From: a virus
IMG/VR virus record: IMGVR_UViG_3300031521_000049
Span: 1-64,000 of that record
Direction: 5' to 3' (one strand)
DNA length: 64,000 bases
A program made the position numbers and the translations under genes. The notes below the pieces were generated by a model. It had not been told where the DNA came from. It searched no databases and saw only the letters and a list, made by a program, of their open reading frames with translations. Shown here one piece after another: positions 3,667-47,688 of this stretch; the stretch's first letter is position 1, and each line of letters starts with the position of its first letter.

Positions 3667-6499
3667 TCCTATTGGAGACATGGTCGTCCGCATCGTCGGA
3701 GATAATAGTGAACTTGATAAAAGTATTGATAGTTCTCAAACTAAATTAAAAAGCTTTAGTGATACTGCTATTAATCTTGGAACAAAATTATCTCTTGGAT
3801 TGACCGCCCCAATAGTTGCTGCTGGAATTGCGTCATTAAAATCTGCTGGACAATTTCAAATGTATCAAGCGTCATTTGAAACAATGCTTGGATCGGCAGA
3901 AAAAGCAAAAGCCACGATTGCAGATATGCAAAAGATGGCAGCAGCAACACCATTTGAATTAGGTGATTTAGCTCAAGCTGGAAAAGTTTTATTGCAATAC
4001 GGAGTTTCAGCAGACACATTAATGAGTAGAATATCTATGCTTGGAGATATTGCTCAGGGTGATGCAAATAAATTAGGTTCTTTGACTTTAGCTTTTGGAC
4101 AAATGAGCTCAACTGGAAAGTTGATGGGACAGGATTTGCTTCAAATGATTAATGCTGGTTTCAATCCATTAAAAGTTATTTCTGATAAAACTGGCGAATC
4201 AATGGCATCTCTTAAAGATAGAATGTCAAAAGGAAAACTTGGTGTTGATGAAGTAACGAACGCTTTTATTTCTGCAACATCAGCTGGTGGTCAATTTTTT
4301 GGAGGAATGGAAAAAGCCTCTAAAACATTACCAGGATTAATCTCAACTCTTCACGACGATGTAAGTACATTAGGTCGATCTTTTGTTGAAGATTTAATGC
4401 CGTCTGTTATGGATACAATTAAAGGGTTAAGCTCGTTCGCTCAAAGTGTAACAGAATTAGATGCACCAACAAAAGCATTTATAGTTACTATGCTTGGATT
4501 TGCTGCTGCTGCTGGCCCAGTATCTTTAGGAATAGGGTTAATTTCAAAAGCAATGATTTTTTTAGCTGCCAATCCAGTAGTTTTAGCTATTGCCGGAATT
4601 GCAGCATTAACCGCTGTTGTAGTTTCTCTTGGTGTTGCTATTGATAAAGCAAATATGGAAAAACTTTCTGCTGAATACGGAAAGGTTTCTGAAGCATCCG
4701 GAATTTCATTAAGAAATATTGAGATGATTGGCGACGCATTAGATAGACAACAAAATTTCGGGCCTCCTGATTTTGAATCTACAAAACAACAAGTAAAAGA
4801 TATTGCAGAATCATTAGGAGTTACGGAAGCGTCAGTAATTTCTATTGGGCTTGCGAATACAAATGTAACTGATGAATATAGAAAACAACTTCAAACTCTT
4901 AAAGATCAAACAATAGTTCTTTCTGCTAATAGAGATACTGGTGGTGATCTTGAACTTAAAATAAAAAGAGCATTAGAGGCATCCGCAAAGGCAGCAGAAG
5001 ATGCAAAAACAAAAGAAAAAGATTTGGCAACTCAAAGAGATACTATTATTGAAGCATATAATGCGAAATTAAAAGAAAACGCTAATCTTGTAAAAGCAGG
5101 ATTAATGACTCAAGAAGACGCATTAAAAAGTAATAATGAAGCATTAACGCAATCAGCAGAAGATATATCTAAACTTGGAATGGTGTCTGCAAAAACAAAT
5201 ATTTTGTTGGCTGGCGCTAAACAAGTAGCATTGGATAATGCAGATGCCATTAAAAAAGAAAACGCTGAAAAAGAATTGCAAATAGAATATGATAAAGAAT
5301 ATTCTGATTTACTTTCCGGAATAGATACGGTTACAGAAGAAAACAATAAAAGAGATATAGAGATTGCCTCTTGGAATGAATATCAAGATAAAAAGATGGT
5401 TGCAAACAAAAAGAAAGCTTTTGAAGATATCTATTCATCAGCTTGGGATATTGCAAATTCATTAGTTGAACTAAATAAAATACAAGCTCAAAAAGAAATA
5501 GATTCTATAAATGAAGTAAGAGACGCAAAAATAGAAGCTCTTAAAAAAGCTCAACAAGTAGAAACAGATACACTTGAAAAAAGTCATACTGCTCAAACCA
5601 ATGCCCTTAAAATATTACTTCAAGCTGAAACAGATGCTTTTAAGAAAAAACAAGATGATGAAACAAAAGCTATCGATAACGCATTACAGCAAGAATTATT
5701 TGATAAAGGGTTGGCAGGAGCAGCAACAGTAGATCAATATAAAAAAGAATTGGATGTTGCAATTTCAACTGGCGACTCTATAAAAATAAAAGAGGCTCAA
5801 GACGCTTATGATAAATCAGTAATAGAAAAAGAATATGCCGATCAGCAAACGGTATTAAAAGCTCAACAAGCTCTTGATGATATAGCGTTGAAGACGAGAC
5901 AAGCTGCCGACGAAGCTGCTTTAAAGCAAAAACAAAAAGATGATGATGTTGCTTTAAAACAAAAACAAACAGATGAACAAGCAGCAATTGAAAAAATAGC
6001 TTCTGATAAAACAAGAAAATTAAATTATGATGCTGCAATGGCTGCATATCAATTAAATATAGCTAGCACAGTTGCGTCTGGTGCAAGAGCAGTAATTGAA
6101 ACATTTGCAGAACTTGGGTTTACTCCTTGGGGAATTGCTGCTGCCGCTTTAATGTCAGCAACAACTATAGCACAGCTAGCAGTTATAGATGCGAATAAAC
6201 CAAAATTAGCAAACGGAGGAATAATATTACCAAGTAATGGAGGAACTGATGTCACTGTTGGAGAGGCAGGTCAAGCAGAAGTTGTAATTCCTCTTGATAA
6301 ATTAGATGCTATGTTAAAAACAGTAGCTCTTAATAATTTAAATAAAGAAAGTTATTCAGATAAAAATAGTAACTCAACAAAAGCACAAGCAAATAATATT
6401 TTTCAAATTGGTTCTGTTATTGCAAATCCTTCAGGTCTTCGAGAGCTTAATAGGTTGTTATCTAAATATTCTAATATTGAAACCAAGAGGGTTGGATAA
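3659..6499 (+). CDS. Tail tape measure protein
   Basis: 946 residues, by far the longest structural gene. The N-terminus (VRIVGDNSELDKSI, then KSFSDTAINLGTKLSLGLTA) matches the start of TP901/phage tail tape measure proteins. A hydrophobic stretch near residues 270-325 is followed by long Lys/Glu/Ala/Gln coiled coils at about 430-790. The C-terminus has an Ala-rich helix and a glycine-rich PKLANGGIILPSNGGTDVTV element common near tape measure C-termini. It sets tail length and helps DNA enter the cell. A tail of roughly 140 nm is implied by the usual 1.5 A per residue (inference). Confidence 0.9.
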   Translation: MSSPIGDMVVRIVGDNSELDKSIDSSQTKLKSFSDTAINLGTKLSLGLTAPIVAAGIASLKSAGQFQMYQASFETMLGSAEKAKATIADMQKMAAATPFELGDLAQAGKVLLQYGVSADTLMSRISMLGDIAQGDANKLGSLTLAFGQMSSTGKLMGQDLLQMINAGFNPLKVISDKTGESMASLKDRMSKGKLGVDEVTNAFISATSAGGQFFGGMEKASKTLPGLISTLHDDVSTLGRSFVEDLMPSVMDTIKGLSSFAQSVTELDAPTKAFIVTMLGFAAAAGPVSLGIGLISKAMIFLAANPVVLAIAGIAALTAVVVSLGVAIDKANMEKLSAEYGKVSEASGISLRNIEMIGDALDRQQNFGPPDFESTKQQVKDIAESLGVTEASVISIGLANTNVTDEYRKQLQTLKDQTIVLSANRDTGGDLELKIKRALEASAKAAEDAKTKEKDLATQRDTIIEAYNAKLKENANLVKAGLMTQEDALKSNNEALTQSAEDISKLGMVSAKTNILLAGAKQVALDNADAIKKENAEKELQIEYDKEYSDLLSGIDTVTEENNKRDIEIASWNEYQDKKMVANKKKAFEDIYSSAWDIANSLVELNKIQAQKEIDSINEVRDAKIEALKKAQQVETDTLEKSHTAQTNALKILLQAETDAFKKKQDDETKAIDNALQQELFDKGLAGAATVDQYKKELDVAISTGDSIKIKEAQDAYDKSVIEKEYADQQTVLKAQQALDDIALKTRQAADEAALKQKQKDDDVALKQKQTDEQAAIEKIASDKTRKLNYDAAMAAYQLNIASTVASGARAVIETFAELGFTPWGIAAAALMSATTIAQLAVIDANKPKLANGGIILPSNGGTDVTVGEAGQAEVVIPLDKLDAMLKTVALNNLNKESYSDKNSNSTKAQANNIFQIGSVIANPSGLRELNRLLSKYSNIETKRVG

Positions 6500-6864: not shown

Positions 6865-7985
6865 TAACAGTACCAAGTTCATTAAAAACAAAAATACAAA
6901 AACTCAGAGGAAGAAAACTTCAAGCAAGATGTCGTTTCGATTTCTCAGACACATCTATAGATAATACAATAATAGGATATAGCAATAATAAAAATAAAAT
7001 AAGTTATTATTCTCAGCTTTATAATGGAAAAGAAGACGTTTCTCAAAAATGGATGTCTTTAGACGGATCAAGTAAACTAGATGGAACATATCATCTAGCT
7101 CCAGAAACAGAATCAGGTATTGAAAAATATGAAATGGGTTGGTGGAGTGAAGATTTATCAGGAGACAATGGAGATTTTAAAACTCATAAAGCAAAAGCTT
7201 TTAAAAAAAGAAGTTTTGGAAGATATTCATTTGGACTAAATATAAACCCTCCATCTGTTTTTGTTAATTTTACACCAAGACAAGTTCAAGAAATAAATAT
7301 TTCTTTTGATAATGCAAGATTAGAATATGCTGTTGATTTCGACGTAATTTTTTATGATATAAATAATGCAATAATAGATTCTCATTCTGTTGTAGGAAAT
7401 TCTGGATTAAAATATAATACATCTATAACTCCTATATTAGCTATTTGCATAATGGAACTTAAAATAAAAAAATGGAATGAAGTTCATAGAAACGCTAAAG
7501 TGGCAGAAATGTATACCATGATTTCTATGATGATAAGCGGAAGCGACATAATAAGCTTGCAAGTTATAGAGGATAGAGAATTATCTGATAAAAGTTTGCC
7601 AGTTGGTACTACAGCTTCTGGAACTTGTGTTGTAGAGTTTTATAATAGATCTAGACTTTTTGATTGGAATAATAAAGAATCTAGGCTTTATAATTTTGTA
7701 AGAAAAGGTGTTAAAATGTTCCCTGAAATTGGAGACGGCATCAATTGGATTCCAATGGGAACATTTTATGTTGAAGAATGGGACATTCCTGTTCAAGATA
7801 TAGTTGTAACTGCAACAGGATTAGATTTAATGGCGTCATTGGATGATTCTGAATATACAACGAGTGCCGCAATAACCGCTCCTAACGATCAAACATTTTT
7901 AATAGATACAAATGTTGAATGGATATCAGCAACATTAAACGGAACTCAAGCCGTAGGAAATACATTAATGATGAGGTTTACATGA
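6861..7985 (+). CDS. Tail-tip / baseplate protein, N-terminal part
   Basis: 374 residues. The core (ELSDKSLPVGTTASGTCVVE, a DWNNKES stretch, VRKGVKMFPEIGD and WIPMGTFYVEEWDIP) follows the pattern of tail-tip proteins, which in many siphophages are a single protein of 700-800 residues. Here the frame ends (TGA, overlapping the next ATG) within a region that looks like a sugar-binding or sandwich domain, and the rest appears in the next gene. It probably builds the host-recognition tip. Confidence 0.6.
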   Translation: MITVPSSLKTKIQKLRGRKLQARCRFDFSDTSIDNTIIGYSNNKNKISYYSQLYNGKEDVSQKWMSLDGSSKLDGTYHLAPETESGIEKYEMGWWSEDLSGDNGDFKTHKAKAFKKRSFGRYSFGLNINPPSVFVNFTPRQVQEINISFDNARLEYAVDFDVIFYDINNAIIDSHSVVGNSGLKYNTSITPILAICIMELKIKKWNEVHRNAKVAEMYTMISMMISGSDIISLQVIEDRELSDKSLPVGTTASGTCVVEFYNRSRLFDWNNKESRLYNFVRKGVKMFPEIGDGINWIPMGTFYVEEWDIPVQDIVVTATGLDLMASLDDSEYTTSAAITAPNDQTFLIDTNVEWISATLNGTQAVGNTLMMRFT

Positions 7986-9211
7986 GCTCTTTAGGAACGT
8001 GCGCCTTAAACACTTGCGCTTTTAAATCTCAATATTATATAGGTATATGGCAAGATGCTTTACCTTTTACTTATGAGGCTGGAGCAACAGTTTATATAAC
8101 GGCATCTATGGTTGCATCAATACCAATGGGAACAAAAGTTCTTTTGTATTGTAGCGAAGATTCTATAACTTGGACTCAAATTAATTTAAATCAAGTAACT
8201 TATGTTACTTTTACTAGTAGTTTTTCTGGATCGTCTCTGTTATATGTTAAGCTTGAATTATATTCGTATAATTCATTAGCATCTCCAATTATTACTTCTT
8301 TAAATATATTTATCCATCAAGAAACATCTTTATATACTATAGCAATACAGGTTTTATCTGATGGCCTTACAAGTAGAAATGTATCTTGGAATGTTGATAC
8401 TGAGTTGCAAAAATATAAAATACCGTATGCTTGGTTAAAAACAATGACCCATAGAAAAGCATTAGCTCAAATATCAGAAGCTGCTGGAGGAGTCGCATAT
8501 CAAGATAGAAATGGAATTATAAGAATAGAAGCTGGAAATTATATAGAAAGAAAAGAAGGAGGAGTTGCGGTTGATACGATAAATGAAGATAGAATATTTG
8601 AAATGAGCTCTCCTGTTGCAGCAGCAGCAAATAAAGTTCAAATAACAACTCTTCCTTATGTAGCTCAATCTAATCAAGTGATATGGACTTTAAGCGGAAC
8701 AAATACTTTAGTTGCAGGAGAACAAAAAACATATAATGTAAATTATTCGGATTGGGAAGCTGTTATTGATGCAACAGCATCTTTAACTGGAACAGGAGCA
8801 TCAATAATAGCTAGTGTCTATAGATTTGGAGGAGCTGATATTACTATTTCTGCTTCTGTCAATGTAACTATAACATTAAATATTTCTGGCAAACCATTAA
8901 AAATAGTTGGAAGTCAAGTCGTAACAGAAACAGATGGTGATAGTATAAGGAGATATGGAATAAAAATATTATCAATAAATGAAAATAATTTAATTCAATC
9001 AACAGAAATATCCGAAGCAATTGCAGAAGATATAATAAATATAACAAAAAATCCAAACAGAAATATAGAAATTTTATGGAGAGGAGACCCAACAGACGAA
9101 CTTGGAGACATTGTTAAAGTTATTGATAACAACGCAGTAATAGTTTCGCAAGAATTTGAATTGAGTGGAAACGGGTTTAACACAAAAACAAAATTAAGGA
9201 GGCTAGGATAA
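7982..9211 (+). CDS. Tail-tip / baseplate protein, C-terminal part
   Basis: 409 residues from the ATG at 7982 (ATGA overlap with the previous stop). An upstream in-frame ATG at 7919 exists but lacks a ribosome site. Residues around 150-200 (WLKTMTHRKALAQISEAAGG followed by YQDRNGIIRIE) and the C-terminal GDIVKVIDNN region match the C-terminal half of tail-tip proteins. Its N-terminus is a beta-sandwich-like insert. Together with the previous gene it would make the full-length tip protein. Confidence 0.6.
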   Translation: MSSLGTCALNTCAFKSQYYIGIWQDALPFTYEAGATVYITASMVASIPMGTKVLLYCSEDSITWTQINLNQVTYVTFTSSFSGSSLLYVKLELYSYNSLASPIITSLNIFIHQETSLYTIAIQVLSDGLTSRNVSWNVDTELQKYKIPYAWLKTMTHRKALAQISEAAGGVAYQDRNGIIRIEAGNYIERKEGGVAVDTINEDRIFEMSSPVAAAANKVQITTLPYVAQSNQVIWTLSGTNTLVAGEQKTYNVNYSDWEAVIDATASLTGTGASIIASVYRFGGADITISASVNVTITLNISGKPLKIVGSQVVTETDGDSIRRYGIKILSINENNLIQSTEISEAIAEDIINITKNPNRNIEILWRGDPTDELGDIVKVIDNNAVIVSQEFELSGNGFNTKTKLRRLG

Positions 9212-19248: not shown

Positions 19249-21993
19249 TTAATACCTATAACTATTGTCGATTCTGAACTTAAAATCAAAATACTTTTCT
19301 ATCTTCTTTGACCCTTCAGGAGTTATTTTAATATCTTTTTTTGCTCCTATTTCATCAAGTATATCATCGATTTTATTTCCTTTCTTTTTGATATCTGAAA
19401 AATCATCTTCCTCATCAAAAAAACCAACATTATTTTTCTTTGTATTTTTCTTTCCTGCTATCTCTTTTGCTTTTCCTTCACCTATTCCTTTAATCTCGAT
19501 AAATGGACAATACATAATATTATTTTTTACTATCCATCGAATTGCATCTGACTTTCCAATCTTAGGTGGTCGAACATCAAGATCCATTTTAATAGCATAT
19601 TCGATCAATTCTTTTTTATTATTTTCAGATCCATAAGTTAAAGACGCACAAACAAATTCTTGAGGATAATAATATTTAATAACCATTTGCCAATATGCCA
19701 TTACAGAATAAGCCAAACTGTGGGATTTGTTGAAGGAGTATTTACCGAACGTAGCCAAGTTATCCCATAATTCCAAGGCGTCTTTTTTATTAAGAGTTTT
19801 ATTTTTTACGCAACCTTCAGCAAATATTTCACTGAACTTCATAAACTCCTCTGATCCTTTACTCTTCGCAACAACCTTACGAACCTTATCGGCTATCTTC
19901 CAATCGAGACCAGCCAATTGATTTACTATCTGCATCAACTGTTCTTGATAAATAATAACGCCATTTGTTTCTTTCGTTATTTTATTTATGATTTCATGTT
20001 GTTTCTTTGTTTTCTTTTCTCCGTTTCTAATTGCAACAAAATCATCTTTAATTCCTGATTGCAAAGGACCAGGACGAAATAAAGCATTGGCACTTGATAA
20101 TGCTTCGATAGAATCAATGTTCATTTCTTGACAAAGTTTTTTCATTCCATAAGTACAGAATTGAAAAATGCCAGTTGTATTTCCTTTTGCAAATTCTTTT
20201 AATACTTTTTTATCAGTAAATTCTATATCTTCATATATAATTTCTGTTCCGGTATTTTCTTTTATAAGTTCTCTTGCATCATTCAAAACAGTCAAAGCAT
20301 TAATACCTAATATATCAAGCTTCATTAATCCTTCATATTCAATATCAAATTTATCCCAATTTACAATTACATCTTTTTTAGATTTTCCGCCTAATTGTAA
20401 ATAAACCTTATCACCATTTTTTAGATTATCAGAAGACAAAACAATTGCCGCAGCGTGTTGTCCTTTTCCTCGTACTTGGTTTTCAAGTCGTATTGCAATA
20501 TCGGTAACTTCAGGATACTTCTTTTTGAATTTCTTTCCTTCGTCAAATTCCTTAAATGAACTTGCAATAATAGAACTTGAGTCTTCGTTCTCTTCTATAA
20601 TTTTTGCAGCTTCATCAACATCGTCAAGAGGAACATCGAAAACGCGCGCAACATCTCGAAGAGCGCAACGACCTTTCATAGTCATAAATGTACTGACGGT
20701 TGCAACATGATCTTCACCATATATTTCTTTGAAATGTTCGATAATCATGTAGCGTTTATTATCTTGAAAATCGTTATCAATATCTGGCAAGTCAATACGA
20801 TCAGGTGATATAAAGCGTGAGAACAATAAATTAAACTCAACTGGATCTATTTTCGTTATATTCAATAAATAACAAACTAATGAACCACCAGCAGATCCAC
20901 GTCCAGGTCCAGTCATAATATTATTTTCTTTGCACCATCCAATAATTTCTTCGACGATTAGAAAGTATTCACAAAATCCTTGTCTTTCAATTAATTCAAG
21001 CTCTTCTAATAATCTTTCTTCATATTTCTTTTTATTTGGTTTTCTTTTTTCGTTATGCAATATTTTTTCTTTAAGTCCTTCAAAACATTTTTCAAATAAC
21101 AATTCTTTTGCAGGCAACTTCCTTCTTTTTTGTTCTGGCGTTTTAGGTAATTGCACTTGGCGCTGAGGAATACGAAACTTTTTGCATTTATCAAATACCT
21201 CGTTTGTGTTTTCAAGATATTCTGCAATTTGTTTTTTATTGAATAATCCTTGTTTTTCAAATGCCAATGCCATTTCAGAATATGATTTTGCATAGAGTCC
21301 AGTTACAGAAAACTTCCATCGCTGAGGATCATCCCATTTTTTCTTTGATTGAATAGCAAGCAATACTTCTTGGGATTGGGCATCATCTTTACTTATATAA
21401 TGACAATCATTTGTAGCAATAGTTTTTATATTAAGAAGTTGCGCATATTTTAAAGCAAGCTTATTTGTTTCAATTTGCTCAGGCATTTTAAAAGGCATAA
21501 CTTCTGTATATAAATCATCGCCAATTTCTTCATGCAGATTTTTTAATAATTTGATTCCCCATTTTTCATGTAAGAAAGAAGCAGTACAGGCGGTCGAAAT
21601 AATTAGTCCTTCGCAATAAGACATTAAAGTTTCTGGATCTATTCGAGGGCGATAATATTGACCGTCTATATTCGCTATCGTCAACATCTTAAGCATGTTC
21701 GTCCAGCCGATTTCATTTTTAACAAGAGCAAGTAGGTGACTTCTTTTTTCGCCTTTTGTATGTTCTTTTATATTTTTAACTATATAAAATTCGCATCCGT
21801 GAATAGGAATTAATCCTTGTTTAATAAATTCGTTTTGAAATTTAATATTGCCATCTACATTTCCATGATTAGTAAGCGCCATTCCGGGTTGACCGATTTG
21901 TTTAATTCTTTTTGCATAATTCGCCGATGTTCCAAATCCATCAAGAACAGAGTATTCGTTATGACAATGCAGATGAACAAAATTATTTTCCAT
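19249..21993 (-). CDS. dnaE: DNA polymerase III alpha subunit (DnaE-type)
   Basis: 914 residues, shorter than the roughly 1160 of bacterial DnaE. The PHP domain at the N-terminus has intact metal ligands (HLHCHNEYSVLDG, ALTNHGNVDG, ATNDCHYIS), so an intrinsic exonuclease is possible. The catalytic core shows PGRGSAGGSLVCYL and the Asp pair in LPDIDNDF near residue 400. A helix-hairpin-helix (EIKGIGEGKAKEIAGKK) is near the end. The OB fold and tau-binding C-terminus are missing or replaced. It is the replicative polymerase of the phage, next to its clamp and loader. Confidence 0.9.
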   Translation of the reverse strand: MENNFVHLHCHNEYSVLDGFGTSANYAKRIKQIGQPGMALTNHGNVDGNIKFQNEFIKQGLIPIHGCEFYIVKNIKEHTKGEKRSHLLALVKNEIGWTNMLKMLTIANIDGQYYRPRIDPETLMSYCEGLIISTACTASFLHEKWGIKLLKNLHEEIGDDLYTEVMPFKMPEQIETNKLALKYAQLLNIKTIATNDCHYISKDDAQSQEVLLAIQSKKKWDDPQRWKFSVTGLYAKSYSEMALAFEKQGLFNKKQIAEYLENTNEVFDKCKKFRIPQRQVQLPKTPEQKRRKLPAKELLFEKCFEGLKEKILHNEKRKPNKKKYEERLLEELELIERQGFCEYFLIVEEIIGWCKENNIMTGPGRGSAGGSLVCYLLNITKIDPVEFNLLFSRFISPDRIDLPDIDNDFQDNKRYMIIEHFKEIYGEDHVATVSTFMTMKGRCALRDVARVFDVPLDDVDEAAKIIEENEDSSSIIASSFKEFDEGKKFKKKYPEVTDIAIRLENQVRGKGQHAAAIVLSSDNLKNGDKVYLQLGGKSKKDVIVNWDKFDIEYEGLMKLDILGINALTVLNDARELIKENTGTEIIYEDIEFTDKKVLKEFAKGNTTGIFQFCTYGMKKLCQEMNIDSIEALSSANALFRPGPLQSGIKDDFVAIRNGEKKTKKQHEIINKITKETNGVIIYQEQLMQIVNQLAGLDWKIADKVRKVVAKSKGSEEFMKFSEIFAEGCVKNKTLNKKDALELWDNLATFGKYSFNKSHSLAYSVMAYWQMVIKYYYPQEFVCASLTYGSENNKKELIEYAIKMDLDVRPPKIGKSDAIRWIVKNNIMYCPFIEIKGIGEGKAKEIAGKKNTKKNNVGFFDEEDDFSDIKKKGNKIDDILDEIGAKKDIKITPEGSKKIEKYFDFKFRIDNSYRY

Positions 21994-21999
21994 AAAAGA

Positions 22000-23085
22000 T
22001 TATTCCTGTCCTCCGTCAAAAGTATTAATCAACTGAATACCGTTTTCATGAACAAAAATAATCCTTGTTCCTTTCTTTTCTTTTTGAGTTGTTTCTTTCA
22101 AATAAAAACTCTTGCTATACTTGATTCCGTTTTCTATCATTGCGTAGTCGGCGAAAATAGAAATTGGATCGAATGATTTCTTGAATGGTTTTTCCCACTC
22201 AACATTTTCTGTATATTTTCCGCTTGGTCTCTGAGAAAATACTTCAATGCCTTCCTGAGAAAAAGTCAATTTAATAGTATCGAATGATTCTATATTCTGA
22301 CTCAATGCTGCTGCTCTATTTACTGCATCGATCAAACCGCTCGGAAGCGTATTGCTGATATCACCTTTTTCTTTTGCATGAGATTCTGCAAGTTTTTGAA
22401 TTTTCGCAACTGGATATTTATCTTGCGCGAGTCGTTTACAAGAAAAAATATCTTTATCCTCAGTCAAAAAATGAACCCATGATTTTGAAATAAAATACTT
22501 TTTCGGGTTATTCAGTTTCGATAGTTCTGCCGATGCCGAATCCGATATCCAGAACGATTCCGAAATCTCACCATCCATTTTATATGAGTTAATCCGAATT
22601 TCATCTGTACTGATAATGTTGTTTTTATCAACAAAGATTCCGGCAAGAACAGATTTATTTGAACTGAATCGACAAATTGAAATACCCTCAATAAAACGAT
22701 CTGGCAAACTCATCCATTTTATTTTTGTCGGAAGTAGGTTTTTTACATGATCGATAATTGACGACTCAAGCAAAGTTAATTCTGCTTGTGCGTTCCCAGA
22801 TTTAATTGTCCATTCTGTTGACTTCGGGATAAGTTTGAAATTCTCTCCTTTCAATCTGCTGATAAGATCATAGAAATCTTTTGCCTTCAGTGCGCCGGAC
22901 ATATTTTCTCCGGCCTTGTTTGTAATAGCAAAAGGAACGGAGACGGAAATATTATCATTGTAGGAATGAATATAGCCATCCGCAAATATAAACGTATCTG
23001 CGCCCTCAAGAATTACGTTCCCAGTTTCAACGCCTGGCATTACCCTCTTCAGTGCTTTCAAAAAATCATTTCTTTCAATAGTCAT
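22000..23085 (-). CDS. Sliding clamp (DnaN-like)
   Basis: 361 residues, close to the length of bacterial beta clamps (366). It opens with TIERNDFLKALKRVMPGVE, like the first helix of DnaN, followed by repeated strand-rich segments (ALKAKDFYDLISRLKGENFK) compatible with three clamp domains. It lies between dnaE and the dpdA genes, with ribosome site GGGAG. It tethers the polymerase to DNA. Similarity is distant, so the call depends partly on length and neighbours. Confidence 0.65.
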   Translation of the reverse strand: MTIERNDFLKALKRVMPGVETGNVILEGADTFIFADGYIHSYNDNISVSVPFAITNKAGENMSGALKAKDFYDLISRLKGENFKLIPKSTEWTIKSGNAQAELTLLESSIIDHVKNLLPTKIKWMSLPDRFIEGISICRFSSNKSVLAGIFVDKNNIISTDEIRINSYKMDGEISESFWISDSASAELSKLNNPKKYFISKSWVHFLTEDKDIFSCKRLAQDKYPVAKIQKLAESHAKEKGDISNTLPSGLIDAVNRAAALSQNIESFDTIKLTFSQEGIEVFSQRPSGKYTENVEWEKPFKKSFDPISIFADYAMIENGIKYSKSFYLKETTQKEKKGTRIIFVHENGIQLINTFDGGQE

Positions 23086-23097
23086 TTATTTTCTCCC

Positions 23098-23934
23098 TTA
23101 TAAAAAATAATTAATCTGTGATTTAAAGTAGGTAGGGCATTGCGGTTTTATATGTTTCTCAAAATATATAATAGACGCTTTACACCTTTCTACTTTTCCG
23201 ACCGTATTCTGAAGCATTGTTTTTTCAACATCAACTCCGATATCCTGAAGATATTTTTCTATCTTCTTTTTTTTATGAGGATCGGTCTGCCATAAAATTG
23301 TAGCAGGACCGGTGCTCGGCATGTTGGGGTTCATTCTTATGAGACCCCAAGGAGTATGGATTGATCCGAATCTTGCCGCAATATGAGCTGAGCGGGCGTC
23401 AACAGACTTCCACGGATACGACCTAATCATATTTACGTCATTTACCCCGAATCCATGAAAACCAATTTCTTTTGGATCTGGATATTCCCTAAATACGCTA
23501 TCGACAAAAGGCCTTCTATTTGCAGTACTTAAAAGAGCTATACCGCCGATACCCACATAATTTGTTTTCTTGATATATCTTTTTAAATATTTTGGATCAG
23601 CGCCAATATGGAAAACCGGGATGCAGTTTATTCCCGCGTCATACATTTTCATATAATTAGTAAAAGATAATTCGTCTTTTCCAAACACATCCAAGCCTAC
23701 CATATAATCAAAGTTTATTTTTGTAGATTTTATAAATTTAATATATTCTTCTACCGAAATAACTATCTTTTGTCTGAAGGCAGAAAAGGCTCCCGAGTCA
23801 AGCATTAATAACGAAGCTTTCTTTGGTCGATCAAAAGACTTAGGAAGGGCGTAATAAGCCGCGAGCATTGGAAAGGGCTTTATTTTTATGTTGTCCCATT
23901 TTTCAGATTGAGCGTTGCTGTAATAGATATCCAT
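23098..23934 (-). CDS. dpdA: DpdA-like DNA guanine transglycosylase, paralogue 1
   Basis: 278 residues from the ATG at 23934 (AGAGGA six bases upstream; the frame extends to 23997 without a ribosome site). Motifs shared with the adjacent paralogue: LMLDSGAFSA with a probable catalytic Asp, YMVGLDVFG, IPVFHIGADPKYLKRYI, VGIGG, and EIGFHGFGVND then WKSVDARSA. These match phage DpdA/TGT-type enzymes that exchange guanine in DNA for a 7-deazaguanine. The preQ0 pathway genes are directly upstream in the same operon. It modifies phage DNA, probably against host restriction. Confidence 0.75.
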   Translation of the reverse strand: MDIYYSNAQSEKWDNIKIKPFPMLAAYYALPKSFDRPKKASLLMLDSGAFSAFRQKIVISVEEYIKFIKSTKINFDYMVGLDVFGKDELSFTNYMKMYDAGINCIPVFHIGADPKYLKRYIKKTNYVGIGGIALLSTANRRPFVDSVFREYPDPKEIGFHGFGVNDVNMIRSYPWKSVDARSAHIAARFGSIHTPWGLIRMNPNMPSTGPATILWQTDPHKKKKIEKYLQDIGVDVEKTMLQNTVGKVERCKASIIYFEKHIKPQCPTYFKSQINYFL

Positions 23935-23946
23935 TTTATCCTCTGA

Positions 23947-23957
23947 TATATTATAGG
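23947..23957 (-). promoter_or_regulatory. Partial phage promoter element, copy C
   Basis: CCTATAATATA on the minus strand, lacking the GATAT part (TTCAA there instead). It is placed as in the other copies, about 8 nt before the AGAGGA of the dpdA-like gene and at the end of the second paralogue. Weaker than copies A, B, D. Confidence 0.5.
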
Positions 23958-24769
23958 TTGAAAGTGTTTGTTTTTGATGAATAAAAATCAAGGTCATTAA
24001 TCATCAAGCTTTCCATTCCAAGTATATTGGCCTTGACTCTATACGCAACGCCTTTTTCTGTTTCTTGAGAAATATCTTTCCAGGATATATTTATTGATCT
24101 TAACCACTTTTCAATGGTTTTTATTTTATTGGTTTTATGTTGAAGCTCATTTAATATTTCGTTTATTTTATATGAACCAAAGGGAGTGTAAAAATTTCCA
24201 AATACAGTTCCTTTTGAGGCATTAGTCGAGTCTATGCTTTTCCAGGGAAACAACTTACTCAGAAACAAAGAAGAAACTCCGAATCCATGAAAACCAATTT
24301 CTTTTGGATCTGGAAATAAAGAAAAGACTTTGTTGAAAAAATAAAATCTTTCTTTATTTGAATACCCAACGGTTCCACCTAATCCTATATAGTTGCTAAT
24401 TTTTGCGAGACGATAAAGATGTTTTATGTCCTCTCCGATATGAAAAACAGGTATTGGATAGAGTCCAGATTTTACCATATATTTATAGTTTTTATAAGAC
24501 TCGTCTGGATTCCCGATAACATCAAGACTGGCGTAAACTATTTTATCTGAATTTTCTTTTCTGTCAAAAAGATATTGACAATACTCATCAATAGAAATGG
24601 ACTTGCCGGAATTATTTACCGCAAAAGCCCCTGAGTCTATAAAAAGATTATTATACCATGGACGCCAAACCGTATTTTTTGATTTTGAAAAGGCAATCAA
24701 CGTATTGGCAGAAAAACCTTTAATCAATCTCAAGGTCTTCATCGGATCGCCGCCATGGTATAATATCAT
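23951..24769 (-). CDS. dpdA: DpdA-like DNA guanine transglycosylase, paralogue 2
   Basis: 272 residues. It carries the same ordered motifs as its neighbour: LFIDSGAFAVNN, YASLDVIGNP, PIPVFHIGEDIKHLYRLAK, IGLGGTVGYSN, EIGFHGFGVSSLF, WKSIDSTNAS. Both enzymes keep the Asp in DSGAF and the second Asp in LDV. Its start follows the transporter stop by two bases (TAAAATG). Two diverged copies in tandem suggest different sequence targets or a heterodimer. Confidence 0.75.
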   Translation of the reverse strand: MILYHGGDPMKTLRLIKGFSANTLIAFSKSKNTVWRPWYNNLFIDSGAFAVNNSGKSISIDEYCQYLFDRKENSDKIVYASLDVIGNPDESYKNYKYMVKSGLYPIPVFHIGEDIKHLYRLAKISNYIGLGGTVGYSNKERFYFFNKVFSLFPDPKEIGFHGFGVSSLFLSKLFPWKSIDSTNASKGTVFGNFYTPFGSYKINEILNELQHKTNKIKTIEKWLRSINISWKDISQETEKGVAYRVKANILGMESLMINDLDFYSSKTNTFNL

Positions 24770-24770
24770 T

Positions 24771-25463
24771 TTACGACTTGCTCACTTTAAATGGATTATA
24801 TGTTTCTGTTCCGACGATATCAATTCCTTCTGCTTTCTTCAGAGCTTTACAAATAATCATAGTAATCGGGGTCATAACAAATTCAACAAAACACTTAACT
24901 CCCCACTGAACAAAAACCATTGTCAAAACAACCGACCAAGGAAGGATACCGACAAAAGCCCCTGTTATAAAAATACAAGAATCTGCAAGCTCGCCAGCAA
25001 CGGTCGAGCCAATAGTCCTCAGAAATAAAAACTTATGATTTGGGTCCCACTTAACCATCCACTCTTTCATGCGAGCGAGAACAAAGGCGTTCGTAAACGA
25101 TCCGACCCAATAACCAATTATTGAAACAATTACCATTCTCGGTACCGCACCAAGAACAGAGGCAAATGCTGTCTGACCTTGATAATATCCTGGGAACGGC
25201 AAGGCGACCGCATAAGCAAAAACCGCAATCATTAAAAGATTTGCGGCAAAGCCAATCCAAATGATTCTTCTGCTCTTTGCAAATCCATACACCTCAACCA
25301 AGATGTCTCCGAAAATATAGGTAATAGGAAACAGATACATCGCTGCCGTTCCGTTAATACCCATCCAATTGACCAACTTTGACGCTATGATATTTGACAG
25401 CAAAAGCATTACAACAAATGCCACTGTAAAAATATCAAGAAATTTGTACGTTCTTTCTTGCAT
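24771..25463 (-). CDS. yhhQ: YhhQ-family queuosine precursor transporter
   Basis: 230 residues from the ATG at 25463, five bases before the queC stop (longer readings run into queC). Six hydrophobic segments; the sequence around LLLSNIIASKLVN, FPITYIFGDILVEVYGF and STVAGELADSCIFITGAFVG is characteristic of the YhhQ/DUF165 family, which imports preQ0/preQ1. One 60-nt line within it (24901-24960) has 28 G+C, far above most of the window. It offers a salvage route parallel to the de novo genes upstream. Confidence 0.85.
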   Translation of the reverse strand: MQERTYKFLDIFTVAFVVMLLLSNIIASKLVNWMGINGTAAMYLFPITYIFGDILVEVYGFAKSRRIIWIGFAANLLMIAVFAYAVALPFPGYYQGQTAFASVLGAVPRMVIVSIIGYWVGSFTNAFVLARMKEWMVKWDPNHKFLFLRTIGSTVAGELADSCIFITGAFVGILPWSVVLTMVFVQWGVKCFVEFVMTPITMIICKALKKAEGIDIVGTETYNPFKVSKS

Positions 25464-25467
25464 TAAT

Positions 25468-26112
25468 TTACTCCTCATAAATAGTTTTGTCTTCGACTCC
25501 TGCAACTTCAAACGCTTCTTTTCGTTCGGTACAAGAGCCGCATTTTCCGCAATGCTTTTCTCCTCCTTCATAACAAGTCCAGGTTTCAGCCATAATATCG
25601 TGAATACCAATACTGGCTCCGATTTCAACAAGATCCGCCTTCGTCATTGAATTAAAAGGAGAAACAACTTTTATATTGTTATAAGTTCCTTCCATTGCCG
25701 CTTGCGATATTGCCTTGGTAAACTCAGGTCTGCAATCTGGATATATTGCGTGGTCTCCAGAATGAGAGCCGAGCATAACACAATCCGCTTTTTCACTTTC
25801 AGCAAGTCCAATTGCAAAAGACAACATGATTCCGTTTCTAAAAGGAACTACGGTCGACTTCATGTTCTCGGCCTGATAATGACCATAAGGAATTACCTCT
25901 TGTCCTTCGAGCAACGAACTCTTCAAAAACGACAAATCGATATCGACAAATTTTAGATCAAGAATAAGTTTTTTTGCCCGTTCCCTTTCGACTTTATTAT
26001 GTTTAGACCCATATGAAAAATTAATAGGAATAATTTCATGTCCCAAAGATTTTTCATAATAATACAAAATAGTACTATCCAATCCACCAGAACAAATCAT
26101 TACAATTTTCAT
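25468..26112 (-). CDS. queC: 7-cyano-7-deazaguanine synthase QueC
   Basis: 214 residues. N-terminal PP-loop SGGLDSTILYY binds ATP; the C-terminal zinc site TCYEGGEKHCGKCGSC carries four Cys; GSHSGDHAIYPDCRPEF is the conserved middle motif. It converts 7-carboxy-7-deazaguanine to preQ0 with ammonia and ATP. No glutaminase-like (Gat-QueC) extension is present. Its start lies immediately before the folE stop. Full length for the family. Confidence 0.93.
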   Translation of the reverse strand: MKIVMICSGGLDSTILYYYEKSLGHEIIPINFSYGSKHNKVERERAKKLILDLKFVDIDLSFLKSSLLEGQEVIPYGHYQAENMKSTVVPFRNGIMLSFAIGLAESEKADCVMLGSHSGDHAIYPDCRPEFTKAISQAAMEGTYNNIKVVSPFNSMTKADLVEIGASIGIHDIMAETWTCYEGGEKHCGKCGSCTERKEAFEVAGVEDKTIYEE

Positions 26113-26694
26113 TTAATTCCTTCCTTTTGATAGAGTAAGAAATTCGCTTCTCGCCATTGAGTTTGTTTTAAATACTCCAGTTAATTTACTTGTACTCATT
26201 ATAGAGTTTATCTTTTCAATTCCTCGCGCCTTAATGCAATAATGTTGACCTTCGACAAGAACAGCAACACCAAGAGGTTCAAGAATCCGTTCGATATCAT
26301 TTGCAATATCGGCAGTCATACGTTCTTGAATCTGAAGGCGCCTGGCGTGCATCTCGACAAGCCGCGCAAGTTTTGAAATACCTACAACCTTCTTGTTCGG
26401 GATATATGCAACATGAACCTTCCCCATAAAAGGAAGCATATGATGTTCGCAGGTACTAAAGAAATCAATATCTTTCAAAAGAACCATCTCGTCATAGTCG
26501 CCAAATTCATCAAAAGATGTTCCGAGGATTTGCTCCGCAGTTAGTTTATAACCGCCATACAATTTATCCCAGCTTTTACGAACTCTTTTTGGCGTATCTA
26601 TAAGTCCTTCTCGGTTTGGATCTTCGCCAAGATACGAGAGAATATCTTTTATCGAATATTCAATAGCTTGTGCGTTTGAATCGATAGCGTCCAT
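26113..26694 (-). CDS. folE: GTP cyclohydrolase I (FolE)
   Basis: 193 residues with zinc-site motifs CEHHMLPF and QHYCIKARG and the signature [20 protein letters not shown]. It makes 7,8-dihydroneopterin triphosphate from GTP, the first step of preQ0 synthesis. AAGGAGG lies upstream and it overlaps queE by 46 nt. The operon order is queD-queE-folE-queC. Full length and apparently intact. Confidence 0.93.
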
Positions 26695-27215
26695 CTGTTA
26701 TCCTCCTTAATTTTCTCAATCGTTTTTTGAATATTTATTTCTGTCTGTTCAGGATTGTCTGCAATAAAACACGGTTGCAGATAATAATGATTGAATCTAG
26801 AATCAAAATACTGTTCCAAGTCTTGTCCAATATAAACAACTTTCAATTCATTTCCGTTTTTTTCTTTCCAATGTTCTTTTGGTGAAATCGTCAGCCAATC
26901 AATATTTACATTTACAAGATTAGTTCCGTTGCTTTCTATATGAACAATATAACCAAAATCATGCAACATATTAACCAAATAATGATCGACCTGAAGGCTA
27001 GGTTCTCCTCCTGTCAATACAACTCGCTTGCACGGATATTTTTTCAATTCGTCAAGAATATCGGGAACAATATATTCTTTTCCTTCGTCAAATTTCGTAT
27101 CGCAAAATGAACACTTCAAATTGCATCCACAAAAGCGAATAAAAATAACTGGCGTTCCGACATAATATCCTTCTCCTTGCAACGAATAAAAAATCTCATT
27201 AATCTTGTATTTCAT
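26649..27215 (-). CDS. queE: 7-carboxy-7-deazaguanine synthase QueE
   Basis: 188 residues from the ATG at 27215. Radical SAM cluster motif in [14 protein letters not shown] (CX3CX2C), preceded by the family's [18 protein letters not shown], and [11 protein letters not shown] for SAM binding. It contracts the pterin ring of carboxytetrahydropterin to carboxydeazaguanine. It overlaps queD by 17 nt and folE by 46 nt. Confidence 0.92.
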
Positions 27216-27534
27216 ATGTCGCCTTGTTGTTTTCGGATTCAATTACATCTGCTTTATAACAATGAGGAGTATTCGAGACAATCCAAAAAGCAATGTTTTC
27301 AGCAGTTGGATTAAAATTAAATATTTCGTTTAAATTTTGATGATCGAGTTTATCTGTAATTACTTTCTTGATTTGAGTAAAATCAATTACCATTCCGTTT
27401 TGATTAAGATTTTCTGACTTACAATAAATAGTAATCATCCAATTGTGGCCATGAAAGTTTTTGCATTTACTTTCGTAATTAAGATCAAGTCTATGAGCGC
27501 CCGCAATCTCCAATTTCTTTTCAATATAATACAT
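27199..27534 (-). CDS. queD: 6-carboxytetrahydropterin synthase QueD
   Basis: 111 residues. Zinc ligands in GAHRLDL and CKNFHGHNW, the LDHQNLN motif and NPTAENIAFWI are all present, and the Glu near the C-terminus (ADVIESENNK) is conserved. It converts dihydroneopterin triphosphate to carboxytetrahydropterin. First gene of the deazaguanine operon, directly behind promoter copy D with GGAGG. Confidence 0.92.
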   Translation of the reverse strand: MYYIEKKLEIAGAHRLDLNYESKCKNFHGHNWMITIYCKSENLNQNGMVIDFTQIKKVITDKLDHQNLNEIFNFNPTAENIAFWIVSNTPHCYKADVIESENNKATYEIQD

Positions 27535-27547
27535 TTATTCCTCCATT

Positions 27548-27563
27548 TATATTATAGGATATC
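27548..27563 (-). promoter_or_regulatory. Phage promoter element, copy D
   Basis: Exact GATATCCTATAATATA on the minus strand, overlapping the helicase stop codon. GGAGG of queD follows about 7 nt after TATAAT plus TATAAAT. It would drive the deazaguanine/dpdA operon. Confidence 0.7.
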
Positions 27564-29001
27564 AGTCTCGTTTTTTACGTTCATATCCTTCTTTTTTATC
27601 GTCATCAGCATCTTTTCTTAATACAACTTCATTGCGCAATCTGCTATCAATACACGGTCGCCCAATATCAAGGCATTGCAAAACAACAGCCTGATCATAA
27701 CTTGTTTCACCTTCACGAGTGACAACCTGAGCAACTCGCATTATTCCATTCTTTCGTTCTTCCTTAGTTTGATTCAATGCAAGTCCCGAAGTTATATGTG
27801 ATATTTTTCTGATATCTTCTGACGCTGATCCTTCTGCAATATCTTTTCCAAATGTTCCTTTTTCTGTTTGTGATGCTGACACCAACAATATATTTTTCTC
27901 CATTGCAAGTCGTCTTCCTGCTTTCCATATATTATCGAGTTGGTGCCTATATTCTCCCTTGAATCCTTTTTCTGTAGTCAATAAATCCATATAGTCAACA
28001 ACCACAACTTCTGCCATATAATTTTCATAGTGTTCAAGATTATCTAATTGATTTGCAATATCTGAAACTGATGCAGATCCACTTGGCATAGAAATAATTC
28101 TGATATCGCCTTTTCTGAATCTTCGTCTAAACTTTTTTTGATATTCTTCAACATTAGTTATATCCAAACCTTTTTTATCAACTTCTTCAATCTCAATAGA
28201 AAAAGTGCCGTCTTCATTTTCTTCAAACTTTGGCAGCTTTATTAATTTATCTTTTATAGGTTGTCCAACTAGTGAACGCCAAGCTCTTTTTACGACCGAA
28301 CGCTCAGGCATTTCAAGCGAGAACAAAACAACCTTATGTCCATATATCATTGCGATTTCTGCAACGAACCAGAGCCACCAAGACTTTCCTCTTTTCTGAG
28401 GAGCAAGGAATGAAAGAAAATCACCACGACACATTGGCCCGGCAACTTTACCAAGTGCGCCAGGAAACTGAAATAAAACATCATCTTCATTTGTAAGGAT
28501 ATCAATTATTTTTTCTGTATCATGGAGTAATGATATTCCTTCACCAAATGGTTTTGCAACTCGCTTGAAATTAGATATTACCGCCTCACCTTTTTCTTTA
28601 TCTTTATTTAATATAGCATCTTCAATGGTTTCTTTTGCAACCTCAAGTGCTCGTAACCCTAAATATTCAATACCATTTTTTATTTCATAATCAATATTGT
28701 TTATTGTTAGACTTTCATATTGTTTAGAAATAGACTGGAGGAAGGTTGAAATCTCATCTTGCTCTTCATCGTCATTAATAAATGTTTTTTTATTTCTGTA
28801 AATCGACTTAATATTTTTCTGAGGCGCAACTTTGAATTCTTGAAAATATTCGTCAATCCATCCAGAAACAGTTCGAGCGTAATTTGTTGCCCAATATGAT
28901 GGATTAATAAGAGGCAATATTTCTTTACAGTATTGCGTATCCATAATGAGATTAATAATTATTTTGCGTTCATCATCAAGTTGTATTTTTTGTATCTTCA
29001 T
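27562..29001 (-). CDS. dnaB: Replicative DNA helicase (DnaB-like)
   Basis: 479 residues from the ATG at 29001 (overlapping the upstream TGA; an in-frame TTG at 29034 lacks a ribosome site). An N-terminal helical domain is followed by a RecA-like core: APQKRGKSWWLW as Walker A variant, KVVLFSLEMPERSVVKRAWR, VVVVDYMDLL as Walker B, and SASQTEKGTFGKDIAEGS with the DnaB-type Gln/Arg switch. It unwinds DNA at the fork. C-terminus basic (EGYERKKRD). Confidence 0.85.
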   Translation of the reverse strand: MKIQKIQLDDERKIIINLIMDTQYCKEILPLINPSYWATNYARTVSGWIDEYFQEFKVAPQKNIKSIYRNKKTFINDDEEQDEISTFLQSISKQYESLTINNIDYEIKNGIEYLGLRALEVAKETIEDAILNKDKEKGEAVISNFKRVAKPFGEGISLLHDTEKIIDILTNEDDVLFQFPGALGKVAGPMCRGDFLSFLAPQKRGKSWWLWFVAEIAMIYGHKVVLFSLEMPERSVVKRAWRSLVGQPIKDKLIKLPKFEENEDGTFSIEIEEVDKKGLDITNVEEYQKKFRRRFRKGDIRIISMPSGSASVSDIANQLDNLEHYENYMAEVVVVDYMDLLTTEKGFKGEYRHQLDNIWKAGRRLAMEKNILLVSASQTEKGTFGKDIAEGSASEDIRKISHITSGLALNQTKEERKNGIMRVAQVVTREGETSYDQAVVLQCLDIGRPCIDSRLRNEVVLRKDADDDKKEGYERKKRD

Positions 29002-29414
29002 ATTACTACTATTTTGTTTTTGCAATAAGGACAAATTTTCGGAAATTCATCTTTAGTCGGTTGCTCGTAATAATTTATTTGTTCTCCATTATTACAATGT
29101 GAATGATAAGTTGTAATATAATTACCTTTTCTTTTTATCGACCATTCACAAGTTTTAGTTATGATTGGACCAGTAACGTTATTTTCATTAGGCGGAGTCC
29201 ATCCCAAAGCAATTAAGGCTTTTTTAACAAACTCTTCTTTTGTATTAATTATTTCCTTGTAATGATTAGTTACAATATCGTTAAATATATTTTTACAATC
29301 AAATTCTATAATCCCTTTTTCAAAATCTATATTTGGTTTTATAGTTGTCATAGATATAAATTTGTCTTTAGAATCTTTCAGGATATCTTTAGAACAATCC
29401 AAATCTTCATTCAT
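28998..29414 (-). CDS. Hypothetical protein with C-terminal zinc ribbon half
   Basis: 138 residues. Middle contains a helix and ALIALGWTPPNENN; C-terminus has FPKICPYCKNKIVV, a CxxC knuckle, plus a lone Cys pair earlier (KTCEW, HSHCNNG) that may complete a zinc site. Coupled to the helicase by ATGA. Unknown function; possibly a replication accessory. Confidence 0.5.
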   Translation of the reverse strand: MNEDLDCSKDILKDSKDKFISMTTIKPNIDFEKGIIEFDCKNIFNDIVTNHYKEIINTKEEFVKKALIALGWTPPNENNVTGPIITKTCEWSIKRKGNYITTYHSHCNNGEQINYYEQPTKDEFPKICPYCKNKIVVI

Positions 29415-44424: not shown

Positions 44425-44562
44425 TTGCCTAATAAAAATGTCGAGTATGATATTGAAGAAGGCGATGAGGATGACAAAATGTATGATGAAATGGATGATC
44501 TGAATAAAAAAGAAACAGATCAACATGATCCTGATTTTTTTAATGGAGGAGACAAAGAATGA
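44425..44562 (+). CDS. 45-residue acidic protein before the barrel gene
   Basis: TTG start with GGAGG seven bases upstream; TGA at 44560-44562 overlaps the barrel ATG. Acidic throughout (DIEEGDEDDKMYDEMDDLNK). Its translation would couple to the outer-membrane barrel gene. Function unknown. Confidence 0.5.
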   Translation: MPNKNVEYDIEEGDEDDKMYDEMDDLNKKETDQHDPDFFNGGDKE

Positions 44563-45572
44563 AGAAAGTTGTTTTTTTATTGGTTTTGACGCTTTTCGGG
44601 ATTTTATTTTCCCAGGAAGCAAAAAATCCTTTTTCAATCAGCGGCAACGTATATACCGGACTTAGGTCGGATATTACAAAAAGCAGTAATACTATTTATG
44701 CGAACGAAAATTCAAATGGGACGCCGATTTGGGCAAACGTAAGAGCAAGTTATTCTTTTGATGATAATGCTGGAGCGGTTTTGAATTTCAGAGTTAAAGG
44801 GATAGATTCTGTTTTCGCAACATCATCAAGATTTTATCTCTTTCTAAATCGCGGTTATATTTGGTCTAAATTTGCAGGTGGGCAAGTAAAAATTAGAACT
44901 GGATATCTTTGGGATTCTGATTTCGAAACATCTAATAATGGTTGGGATACTGCATCCAATTATGAGTGGGTGACTGAAGCAACTTTTAACCCAGCAAAGA
45001 ATTTGGAAATTGGTGCTACATTGCCAACTCCTTATGACGGAAAAACAAGTCTTGAGGATTCTGCAAAAAACACCACTTATGGGGTTCTTTATTCACCAAC
45101 AAACTTTAGGCTTTCTATTATGGGAGAATATGGAGCAACAGAATCAAATCGAGATGTTAATTTTGGGGTTGATTTTACTGGAATCAAAAACACTCTTTTC
45201 AGGATTGAAGGCGATTTACAACAAATAGGTTTTTCTGACTTGGGTTACAATCAGCTTTTTCAAGAAACATCTTATACCTTTGGTTCTGTAACTTCTGATA
45301 TACAAGTGACAGAGTATTTGTACAAAAACGGAGATTCAAATAAATTCAAGATTTATCCCAATATTCTTTTTGTTAACAACGGTGTTTCTTATTATACAGC
45401 ACTAAATGTTACTTTGATTAAAGGATCAAGTGATATTTATAAACAAATCGAAGTTAGTGCAAAAAAGAACATAAATCCAAAGACAAGTATCAAGGGCGGT
45501 TCTTACTTTACTTTTGATCCGTCCTCAGATTTTATGTTCAGTCCATATCTTGAATTTATTGCAACATTCTAA
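44559..45572 (+). CDS. Outer-membrane beta-barrel protein
   Basis: 337 residues with signal peptide (KKVVFLLVLTLFGILFSQ). Alternating strands throughout (GNVYTGLRSD, WANVRASYSF, FRIEGDLQQIGF, SPYLEFIATF) and a C-terminal Phe, the BAM recognition signature. Style recalls spirochaete porin-like proteins (family not assigned). It precedes a binding protein and two permeases with no strong gap, so it may supply outer-membrane passage for the substrate. Barrel genes of this kind are very unusual in phages. Confidence 0.75.
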   Translation: MKKVVFLLVLTLFGILFSQEAKNPFSISGNVYTGLRSDITKSSNTIYANENSNGTPIWANVRASYSFDDNAGAVLNFRVKGIDSVFATSSRFYLFLNRGYIWSKFAGGQVKIRTGYLWDSDFETSNNGWDTASNYEWVTEATFNPAKNLEIGATLPTPYDGKTSLEDSAKNTTYGVLYSPTNFRLSIMGEYGATESNRDVNFGVDFTGIKNTLFRIEGDLQQIGFSDLGYNQLFQETSYTFGSVTSDIQVTEYLYKNGDSNKFKIYPNILFVNNGVSYYTALNVTLIKGSSDIYKQIEVSAKKNINPKTSIKGGSYFTFDPSSDFMFSPYLEFIATF

Positions 45573-45585
45573 AAGGAGTTAATTG

Positions 45586-46842: not shown

Positions 46843-46845
46843 TTT

Positions 46846-47688
46846 ATGAAAAACAAAATGAAAGTCATATTGATTTTGCCAACTCTTATATTTTTTGCCA
46901 TATTCACAATCTGGCCATTGTGTGAAGTTATATGGCTTTCATTTTTCAAAACAAATTTTATAGTTACTAAATTTGTATTTTTAGATAATTATAAAAATGT
47001 AATTACTAATCCAGATTTTTTACAATCTGTTTATAATTCTTTATTTTATACTATCTTGCTTGCACCAGCTCAAGTATTTTTTGGGTTTGTTGGTGCGTTG
47101 ATTGTTTTTGAGTTAAGTAAAAAATGGCAAGATATATCGAGAATTCTTTTTTATGTTCCTGTATTGTCATCAGGAATAATAATAGCTCAAGTTTGGAAAT
47201 GGGCATTTGGAATGGAAGGTCCATTTAATTGGCTCTTATCTTTTATAAATATTTCTCCGATCGCTTGGTTTGCAAAAGGAGAAACAGGAATTCCAACAGT
47301 TGCTTTTATTGTTTTGTTTTCATCTATTGGTGGAAATATAATAATTATTTTAACTGCATTGCTAGATGTTGATAAATCATTAATTGATTCTGGTAAAATA
47401 GACGGAGCTAATTATTTTCAATGTGTTAAGCATATTTTGACTCCAGCAATAAGCCCTATATTAAAAGTTGTTTTTATTGCATCGATAGTAAATGCTTTTC
47501 AGATATATGAAACTATAATGATGCTTTGCCCATATATTCATACTTCGACAATGACTTATTATATTTATCAAACAGGATTCAAGAATTCAAATTATGGATC
47601 AGCAGCAGTAGAGTCAATTTTGTTAATGATAATTGTTATGAGTCTTTTAGCTATTCAGAAGAAGATTAAAAATGAAAAAAGAGTATAA
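46846..47688 (+). CDS. ABC transporter permease (MalF/UgpA type)
   Basis: 280 residues, six predicted membrane segments, starting with KVILILPTLIFFAIFTIWPL. EAA-type loop: SGKIDGANYFQCVKHILTPA, contacting an ATPase in the cytoplasm. Three bases after the binding protein. Pairs with the permease at 47898. CUT1-type carbohydrate importers have this arrangement. Confidence 0.88.
   Translation: MKNKMKVILILPTLIFFAIFTIWPLCEVIWLSFFKTNFIVTKFVFLDNYKNVITNPDFLQSVYNSLFYTILLAPAQVFFGFVGALIVFELSKKWQDISRILFYVPVLSSGIIIAQVWKWAFGMEGPFNWLLSFINISPIAWFAKGETGIPTVAFIVLFSSIGGNIIIILTALLDVDKSLIDSGKIDGANYFQCVKHILTPAISPILKVVFIASIVNAFQIYETIMMLCPYIHTSTMTYYIYQTGFKNSNYGSAAVESILLMIIVMSLLAIQKKIKNEKRV

Follow-up and report, generated by a model that had tools for sequence, protein, structure and literature searches.

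DNA-guanine transglycosylases replace guanine in DNA with a modified base, which is able to block host restriction enzymes. The established pathway to preQ0 needs no more than FolE, QueD, QueE, and QueC. The single DpdA of phage CAjan modifies both GA and GGC, and dPreQ0 was measured in CAjan DNA, as cited in PMC8306585, which refers to Hutinet 2019 for the base. The single DpdA of phage 9g works in E. coli even without the host TGT, which was tested since TGTs act as dimers (PMC6884629). The same paper places bacterial DpdA in a restriction-modification cluster and describes DpdA2 as lacking one conserved His. In the eukaryotic tRNA enzyme QTRT1/QTRT2, QTRT2 has lost its catalytic residues (PMC6165067). 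No account of two dpdA genes in one phage was found in the literature searched, where most subscription papers were out of reach, and none was found of what decides which guanines phage DpdA replaces.

The window examined here is the whole 64,000-nucleotide stretch of DNA that was analysed, bases 1 to 64,000 of a 66,833-bp IMG/VR virus record. It contains two adjacent dpdA genes, dpdA-B and dpdA-A, both of which appear to encode intact enzymes.

Gene content of the locus

The window comes from a tailed phage, as a terminase, an SPP1-like portal, and a tape measure gene were found. The phage encodes its own primase, helicases, clamp, clamp loader, and PolIII alpha. On the minus strand the order is DnaB-like helicase, queD, queE, folE, queC, yhhQ, dpdA-B, dpdA-A, dnaN clamp, PolIII alpha, and clamp loader (Table 1). 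A second contig, IMGVR_UViG_3300030339_001104, matches the window at 100% identity across 15,891 bp; thus, the pair is not only an error of a single assembly, with the reservation that both contigs may share reads.

Table 1. Positions in the window of the dpdA genes and their neighbors, with the evidence for each.
Feature	Position	Strand	Evidence
dpdA-B, transcribed first of the two, 272 aa	23951..24769	-	PHROG 887 E 1.4e-38; all invariant residues present; AF2 pLDDT 90.8; TGT structures Z 18.5
dpdA-A, transcribed second, 278 aa from Met22 (mechanical ORF reaches 23997)	23098..23934	-	PHROG 887 E 6.8e-36; start from Shine-Dalgarno and L019 homologue; AF2 pLDDT 92.6; TGT Z 19.3, DpdA 7ui4 Z 19.1
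AGAGGA, Shine-Dalgarno-like, ahead of dpdA-A Met22, inside the 16-nt gap past the dpdA-B stop	23939..23944	-	read from sequence
yhhQ, queuosine precursor transporter (Vut_1), 229 aa from inferred start	24771..25460	-	PF02592 E 1.7e-42; TIGR00697 E 2.9e-27, over cut-off
queC, preQ0 synthase, without fused amidotransferase domain	25468..26112	-	PF06508 E 2.3e-54; TIGR00364 over cut-off
folE, GTP cyclohydrolase I	26113..26694	-	PF01227 E 3.9e-71; TIGR00063 over cut-off
queE, 7-carboxy-7-deazaguanine synthase (radical SAM)	26649..27242	-	TIGR04508 E 4.7e-43, below its cut-off; PF04055
queD, 6-carboxytetrahydropterin synthase	27199..27534	-	TIGR03367 over cut-off; PF01242 E 1.7e-27
dnaN-like sliding clamp, directly after dpdA-A	22000..23085	-	PHROG 947 E 4.6e-26
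DNA polymerase III alpha subunit (context)	19249..21993	-	PF07733 E 9.6e-78
DnaB-like replicative helicase (context)	27562..29034	-	PHROG 19 E 2e-37

The locus holds the complete gene set for preQ0 (folE, queD, queE, and queC) together with the transporter gene yhhQ. No QueF-like gene was found in the window by tblastn with the protein of a related virus, L016; a QueF match of FolE reflects the shared T-fold and was discarded. No ArcS or Gat domain was found either. Since none of these was found and QueC is not fused to an amidotransferase, the final base predicted from the gene content is probably dPreQ0.

Outside of this locus, positions 44559-48731 of the window resemble a sugar ABC importer, with a secreted porin-like protein, a solute-binding protein (PF13416), and two permeases (PF00528), and SbcC/SbcD-like genes are nearby. 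The importer-like run may be cargo, or it may point to the host. At 49170-51729, a cytidylyltransferase (PF02348) lies beside an MptE-like protein (PF01973), an arrangement seen in surface-sugar gene sets.

The two DpdA proteins

The first-pass annotation described two adjacent DpdA-like paralogues, and this description was confirmed. Both proteins belong to PHROG 887, 'queuine tRNA-ribosyltransferase', and both model as a TGT fold. Neither had a significant match in Pfam or NCBIfam. They are 38% identical over 219 aa (BLASTP, E 2e-47), and tblastn links them to about 200 DpdA phages. A frameshift or split gene was ruled out as the source of the pair, since neither ORF is truncated and each contains its full domain.

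The mechanical ORFs on the minus strand are 23098-23997 (299 aa) and 23951-24769 (272 aa). The start of dpdA-A is most likely Met22, which sits behind the AGAGGA just past the TAA of dpdA-B (23953-23951). In addition, the MDIYYSN that begins at Met22 aligns with MKIYYSN, the start of the A-like gene in another virus, L019. The Shine-Dalgarno and this start register together give the 278-aa protein of Table 1, and with this start the two genes would not overlap. Thus, of the difference in length that had been reported for the paralogues, 6 aa are real and the 27-aa gap is mostly an artefact of the start assigned to dpdA-A.

The DSGAF, LDV Asp, and HGFGV motifs noticed earlier are present in both proteins, as is the glycine motif G-x-GG, which reads GIGG in dpdA-A and GLGG in dpdA-B. 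A further Asp (SVDA/SIDS), missing from the earlier list, aligns with the TGT nucleophile region in a 12-sequence alignment. The residues that do not vary across a 79-sequence alignment are D46, D82, P106, H109, H160, S177, and D179 (dpdA-A numbering, from Met22). These are three Asp (in DSGAF, LDV, and SxD), two His (in PVFH and HGFG), one Pro, and one Ser, and both paralogues have 7/7. With every invariant residue in place and a TGT/DpdA fold in the models, both paralogues look active, in agreement with the suggestion that both are catalytic. There are some departures from the family. In dpdA-A the near-invariant Glu of 'GED' is Ala (GAD) and Pro104 is Cys, so this protein could be weaker or altered. 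Similarly, dpdA-B carries S50A at a position conserved at 97%.

The paralogues differ around the GG loop as well as at GED/GAD, and they could therefore insert different bases, such as preQ0 and carboxy or amide precursor forms, instead of reading different motifs. More than one 7-deazaguanine can occur in a single phage, as in nt-1 and HVTV-1 (PMC8306585). This division of labor is nevertheless quite doubtful, since QueC should convert the pool to preQ0. To our knowledge, no base-choice residue is known for phage DpdA.

A search of PDB sequences gave nothing significant with single sequences, and a profile gave only 7ui4 (E 1.5), so the fold had to come from models. AF2 models were built on the alignments, with mean pLDDT as in Table 1. 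Foldseek ranked the TGTs that act on tRNA first for both models. With VIA-align, model A scored Z 19.3 against human TGT 7nq4 and Z 19.1 against DpdA 7ui4, the DNA preQ0 insertase (3.0 A, 252 residues), and model B scored Z 18.5 against TGT 2z1x. The TGT zinc motif, CxCxxC..H, is absent from both proteins; their Cys residues are 104, 251, and 266 in dpdA-A and 64 in dpdA-B. The TGT fold, the Foldseek ranking, and the equal VIA-align scores of model A for tRNA enzymes and DpdA would fit a pair in which one paralogue acts on tRNA and the other on DNA. However, sequence searches place both in the DpdA family (PHROG 887) whereas the TGTs of the PDB were not found by sequence, neither has the zinc motif, and DpdA-type genes cluster with replication genes. 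A split between RNA and DNA is therefore very improbable.

Recurrence of loci with more than one dpdA

Scans with dpdA queries and one scan of cellular genomes gave most of the 354 DpdA loci, which collapse into 246 groups when loci with a protein in common are joined. At least two dpdA ORFs were present in 19 of the 246 groups, from clearly separate lineages, in a sample biased by two queries that had themselves been derived from known arrays. Four of the first 81 virus records, which were collected by similarity to dpdA-A or dpdA-B, had more than one dpdA, and this includes the near-copy of the window. Two of the 19 groups are not clean pairs. The first copy of L038 is broken in an error-rich contig and was discounted as a dead enzyme, and the first match of L340 is only a 121-aa fragment at the contig end. 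L133 and L121 have three copies each. The folE gene was also present in all seven of the other multi-copy records tested (L018, L025, L038, L119, L121, L125, and L133). Descent of all the arrays from one pair was ruled out as the prevailing pattern, since tandem copies are scattered over several distinct regions of the tree and the starred branches force at least six label changes.

Cultured phages match in 225 records at 228 places; thus, nearly all of them have one dpdA. The Microbacterium phages Megan and Nicole72 have two each, and the Megan pair is 46% identical. These genes are annotated in GenBank, in Megan both as queuine tRNA-ribosyltransferase. The pair of Nicole72 is not discussed in the paper on that phage (PMC12352058).

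The catalytic Asp/His set is present in every full-length array copy but one, the middle copy of L133 (6529-7626). This copy, which lies between two intact ones near queD, queC, folE, and dnaN, has D45T, H110R, GG changed to DP, and D180S, so that the nucleophile and general-base Asp, the His, and the GG are all lost. It is the one degenerate pseudo-enzyme of the QTRT2 kind among the full-length copies of the other arrays.

Other features were seen in these records. The DpdA proteins of L133 (5383-6516 and 7623-8678), L158 (5986-7020), and L160 (5893-7047) appear to be circular permutants. Their sequences start with the DSGAF strand and carry the N-terminal strand and helix (IYFAG...LxSYHxx) at the C-terminus, and an N-terminal HMM matches their tails with E from 1e-7 to 6e-3. 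Tandem dpdA copies would be a natural intermediate for such a permutation. In L179 (6548-7996), a QueF-like protein between folE and dpdA is interrupted by an apparent intein (Cys...HN|C junction). L242 (4839-6472 and 11-3834) has a dpdA pair beside a ParB-like gene, queD, queE, and folE, with sugar/aminotransferase-like genes upstream. Doubled dpdA ORFs also occur in actinobacterial or prophage-like contigs, L209/L351 (Streptomyces), L240, L203, and L352 (Actinomadura), some with long N-terminal extensions.

Relatives and origin of the pair

It is precisely this locus that varies among the nearest relatives of the window phage by PolIII alpha and among other relatives found through dpdA. L175 (68% identity) has a single dpdA (45% to dpdA-B) with yhhQ and no que genes at the locus. 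In L176 (67%), whose record spans 78 kb, dpdA and yhhQ are both missing from the locus, and folE is missing from the whole record. L016 and L017 have yhhQ with one B-like dpdA, followed in L016 by a QueF-like gene. L019 has queD, queE, queC, and folE with one A-like dpdA ahead of dnaN, and no yhhQ was seen. Such differences among L175, L016, L019, and L176 indicate a fast turnover of the locus.

On reading, L176 was found to carry DNA methyltransferase-like genes (5256-6029 and 7548-8441) between helicase and clamp, where the window phage has its que and dpdA genes. One DNA-modification module has apparently been exchanged for another, which fits an anti-restriction role.

In the best tree, dpdA-A groups with L019 (97/88) and not with dpdA-B. 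A tandem duplication in a single event is therefore not the best tree; however, dpdA-A and dpdA-B as nearest relatives gave an AU test p of 0.29 and are not rejected. In addition, yhhQ and dpdA-B have different nearest relatives. The pair could come from either an old duplication or the joining of two dpdA genes from que-linked and yhhQ-linked cassettes. Since relatives carry one dpdA with yhhQ, one dpdA with que genes, or methyltransferases, the window locus may be a composite of two cassettes, an origin that the AU result leaves attractive but not proven.

The locus could also hold a redundant or transitional pair, in which the second dpdA arrived with yhhQ or the que genes, does the same job, and has yet to be lost. 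The different single-dpdA versions, or none, in the closest relatives agree with this. The two proteins also sit in the same part of the tree and have unusual states in common (PWKS, and Ala for the Trp of DSSSW). Redundancy is still rather unlikely, as both have kept every invariant active-site residue despite 38% identity, and doubled dpdA genes with both copies intact occur in clearly separate lineages, beyond what a transient state would lead one to expect.

Possible roles of two enzymes

The first-pass annotation compared the pair to the eukaryotic heterodimer of a catalytic and a non-catalytic subunit, and this proved to be a poor analogy. One eukaryotic subunit is dead, whereas both proteins here are intact, and the catalytic set is present in all but one of the full-length array copies. 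The zinc motif of the TGT dimer subdomain is absent from both. Relatives of dpdA-A and of dpdA-B each stand alone in other viruses, the former in L019 with que genes and the latter in L175 and L016 with yhhQ. One DpdA is enough in 9g, where no TGT partner is required (PMC6884629), so the activity does not call for a heterodimer. A heterodimer on DNA, whether obligate or specificity-changing, is thus improbable, even with adjacent genes that are likely co-translated across a 16-nt gap, with TGTs that work as dimers (PMC6165067), and with L133 as an example that a dead copy can arise beside live ones.

The leading reading, at about even odds, is that each DpdA is active alone on DNA with preQ0 and that the pair is kept for different targets, broadening protection against restriction. 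FolE, QueD, QueE, and QueC would turn GTP into preQ0, and YhhQ could supplement the pool with preQ0 imported from outside. From this one shared pool, the two separate enzymes would swap guanine in the phage DNA for preQ0. Each would carry out the exchange on a TGT-type barrel, with one Asp as nucleophile and another as general base, and each would modify the DNA independently of the other. The pair would then be retained since the targets differ in sequence context, or possibly in base form, which would give wider protection. A divergence in targets is plausible and would be the simplest reason for so many lineages to keep two intact enzymes. The DpdA of CAjan reaches two motifs, however, so a second motif does not require a second enzyme.

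More broadly, and as a tentative proposal, arrays that hold two or three catalytic dpdA copies may be a recurrent way to widen the set of guanines that are replaced, each copy with its own sequence context, much as in multi-specific methyltransferases. Some arrays would then yield pseudo-enzyme subunits, as in L133, or circularly permuted enzymes. Pairs that are 38-46% identical in one genome, presumably with one preQ0 pool, provide a natural side-by-side test of specificity. Because Megan and Nicole72 are cultured and have such pairs, the question of targets can be taken to the bench now.

Comparison with known systems

The two proteins appear to be phage DpdA and not DpdA2, judging by PHROG 887, the active-site residues, and the modelled barrel. 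The locus is similar to the phage DpdA type (9g/CAjan/Seuratvirus; PHROG 887) in family, fold, active-site residues, and an operon with queC/D/E, folE, and yhhQ by dnaN and polymerase. It differs in having two dpdA genes in place of one, with proteins about 30-35% identical to the known phage proteins. A similar cluster with a single dpdA is found in Seuratvirus VogelGryff and Streptococcus phage MS1.

The bacterial DpdA of the Dpd system (7ui4) has the same fold as model A, but its sequence match to the window is weak. Eukaryotic QTRT1/QTRT2 is also a case of two TGT-fold paralogues in one cell, and model A is close to 7nq4; unlike that pair, the window paralogues both keep their catalytic residues and have no zinc motif. 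Megan and Nicole72 are alike in having two dpdA genes, adjacent or nearly so, beside queC, queD, and queE, with folE as well in Nicole72. They belong to a distant lineage, however, with an N-terminal amidotransferase-like part on QueC and no yhhQ seen in the stretch. Paired dpdA genes are a recurrent form of the known phage DpdA system, and one that has apparently not been described before.
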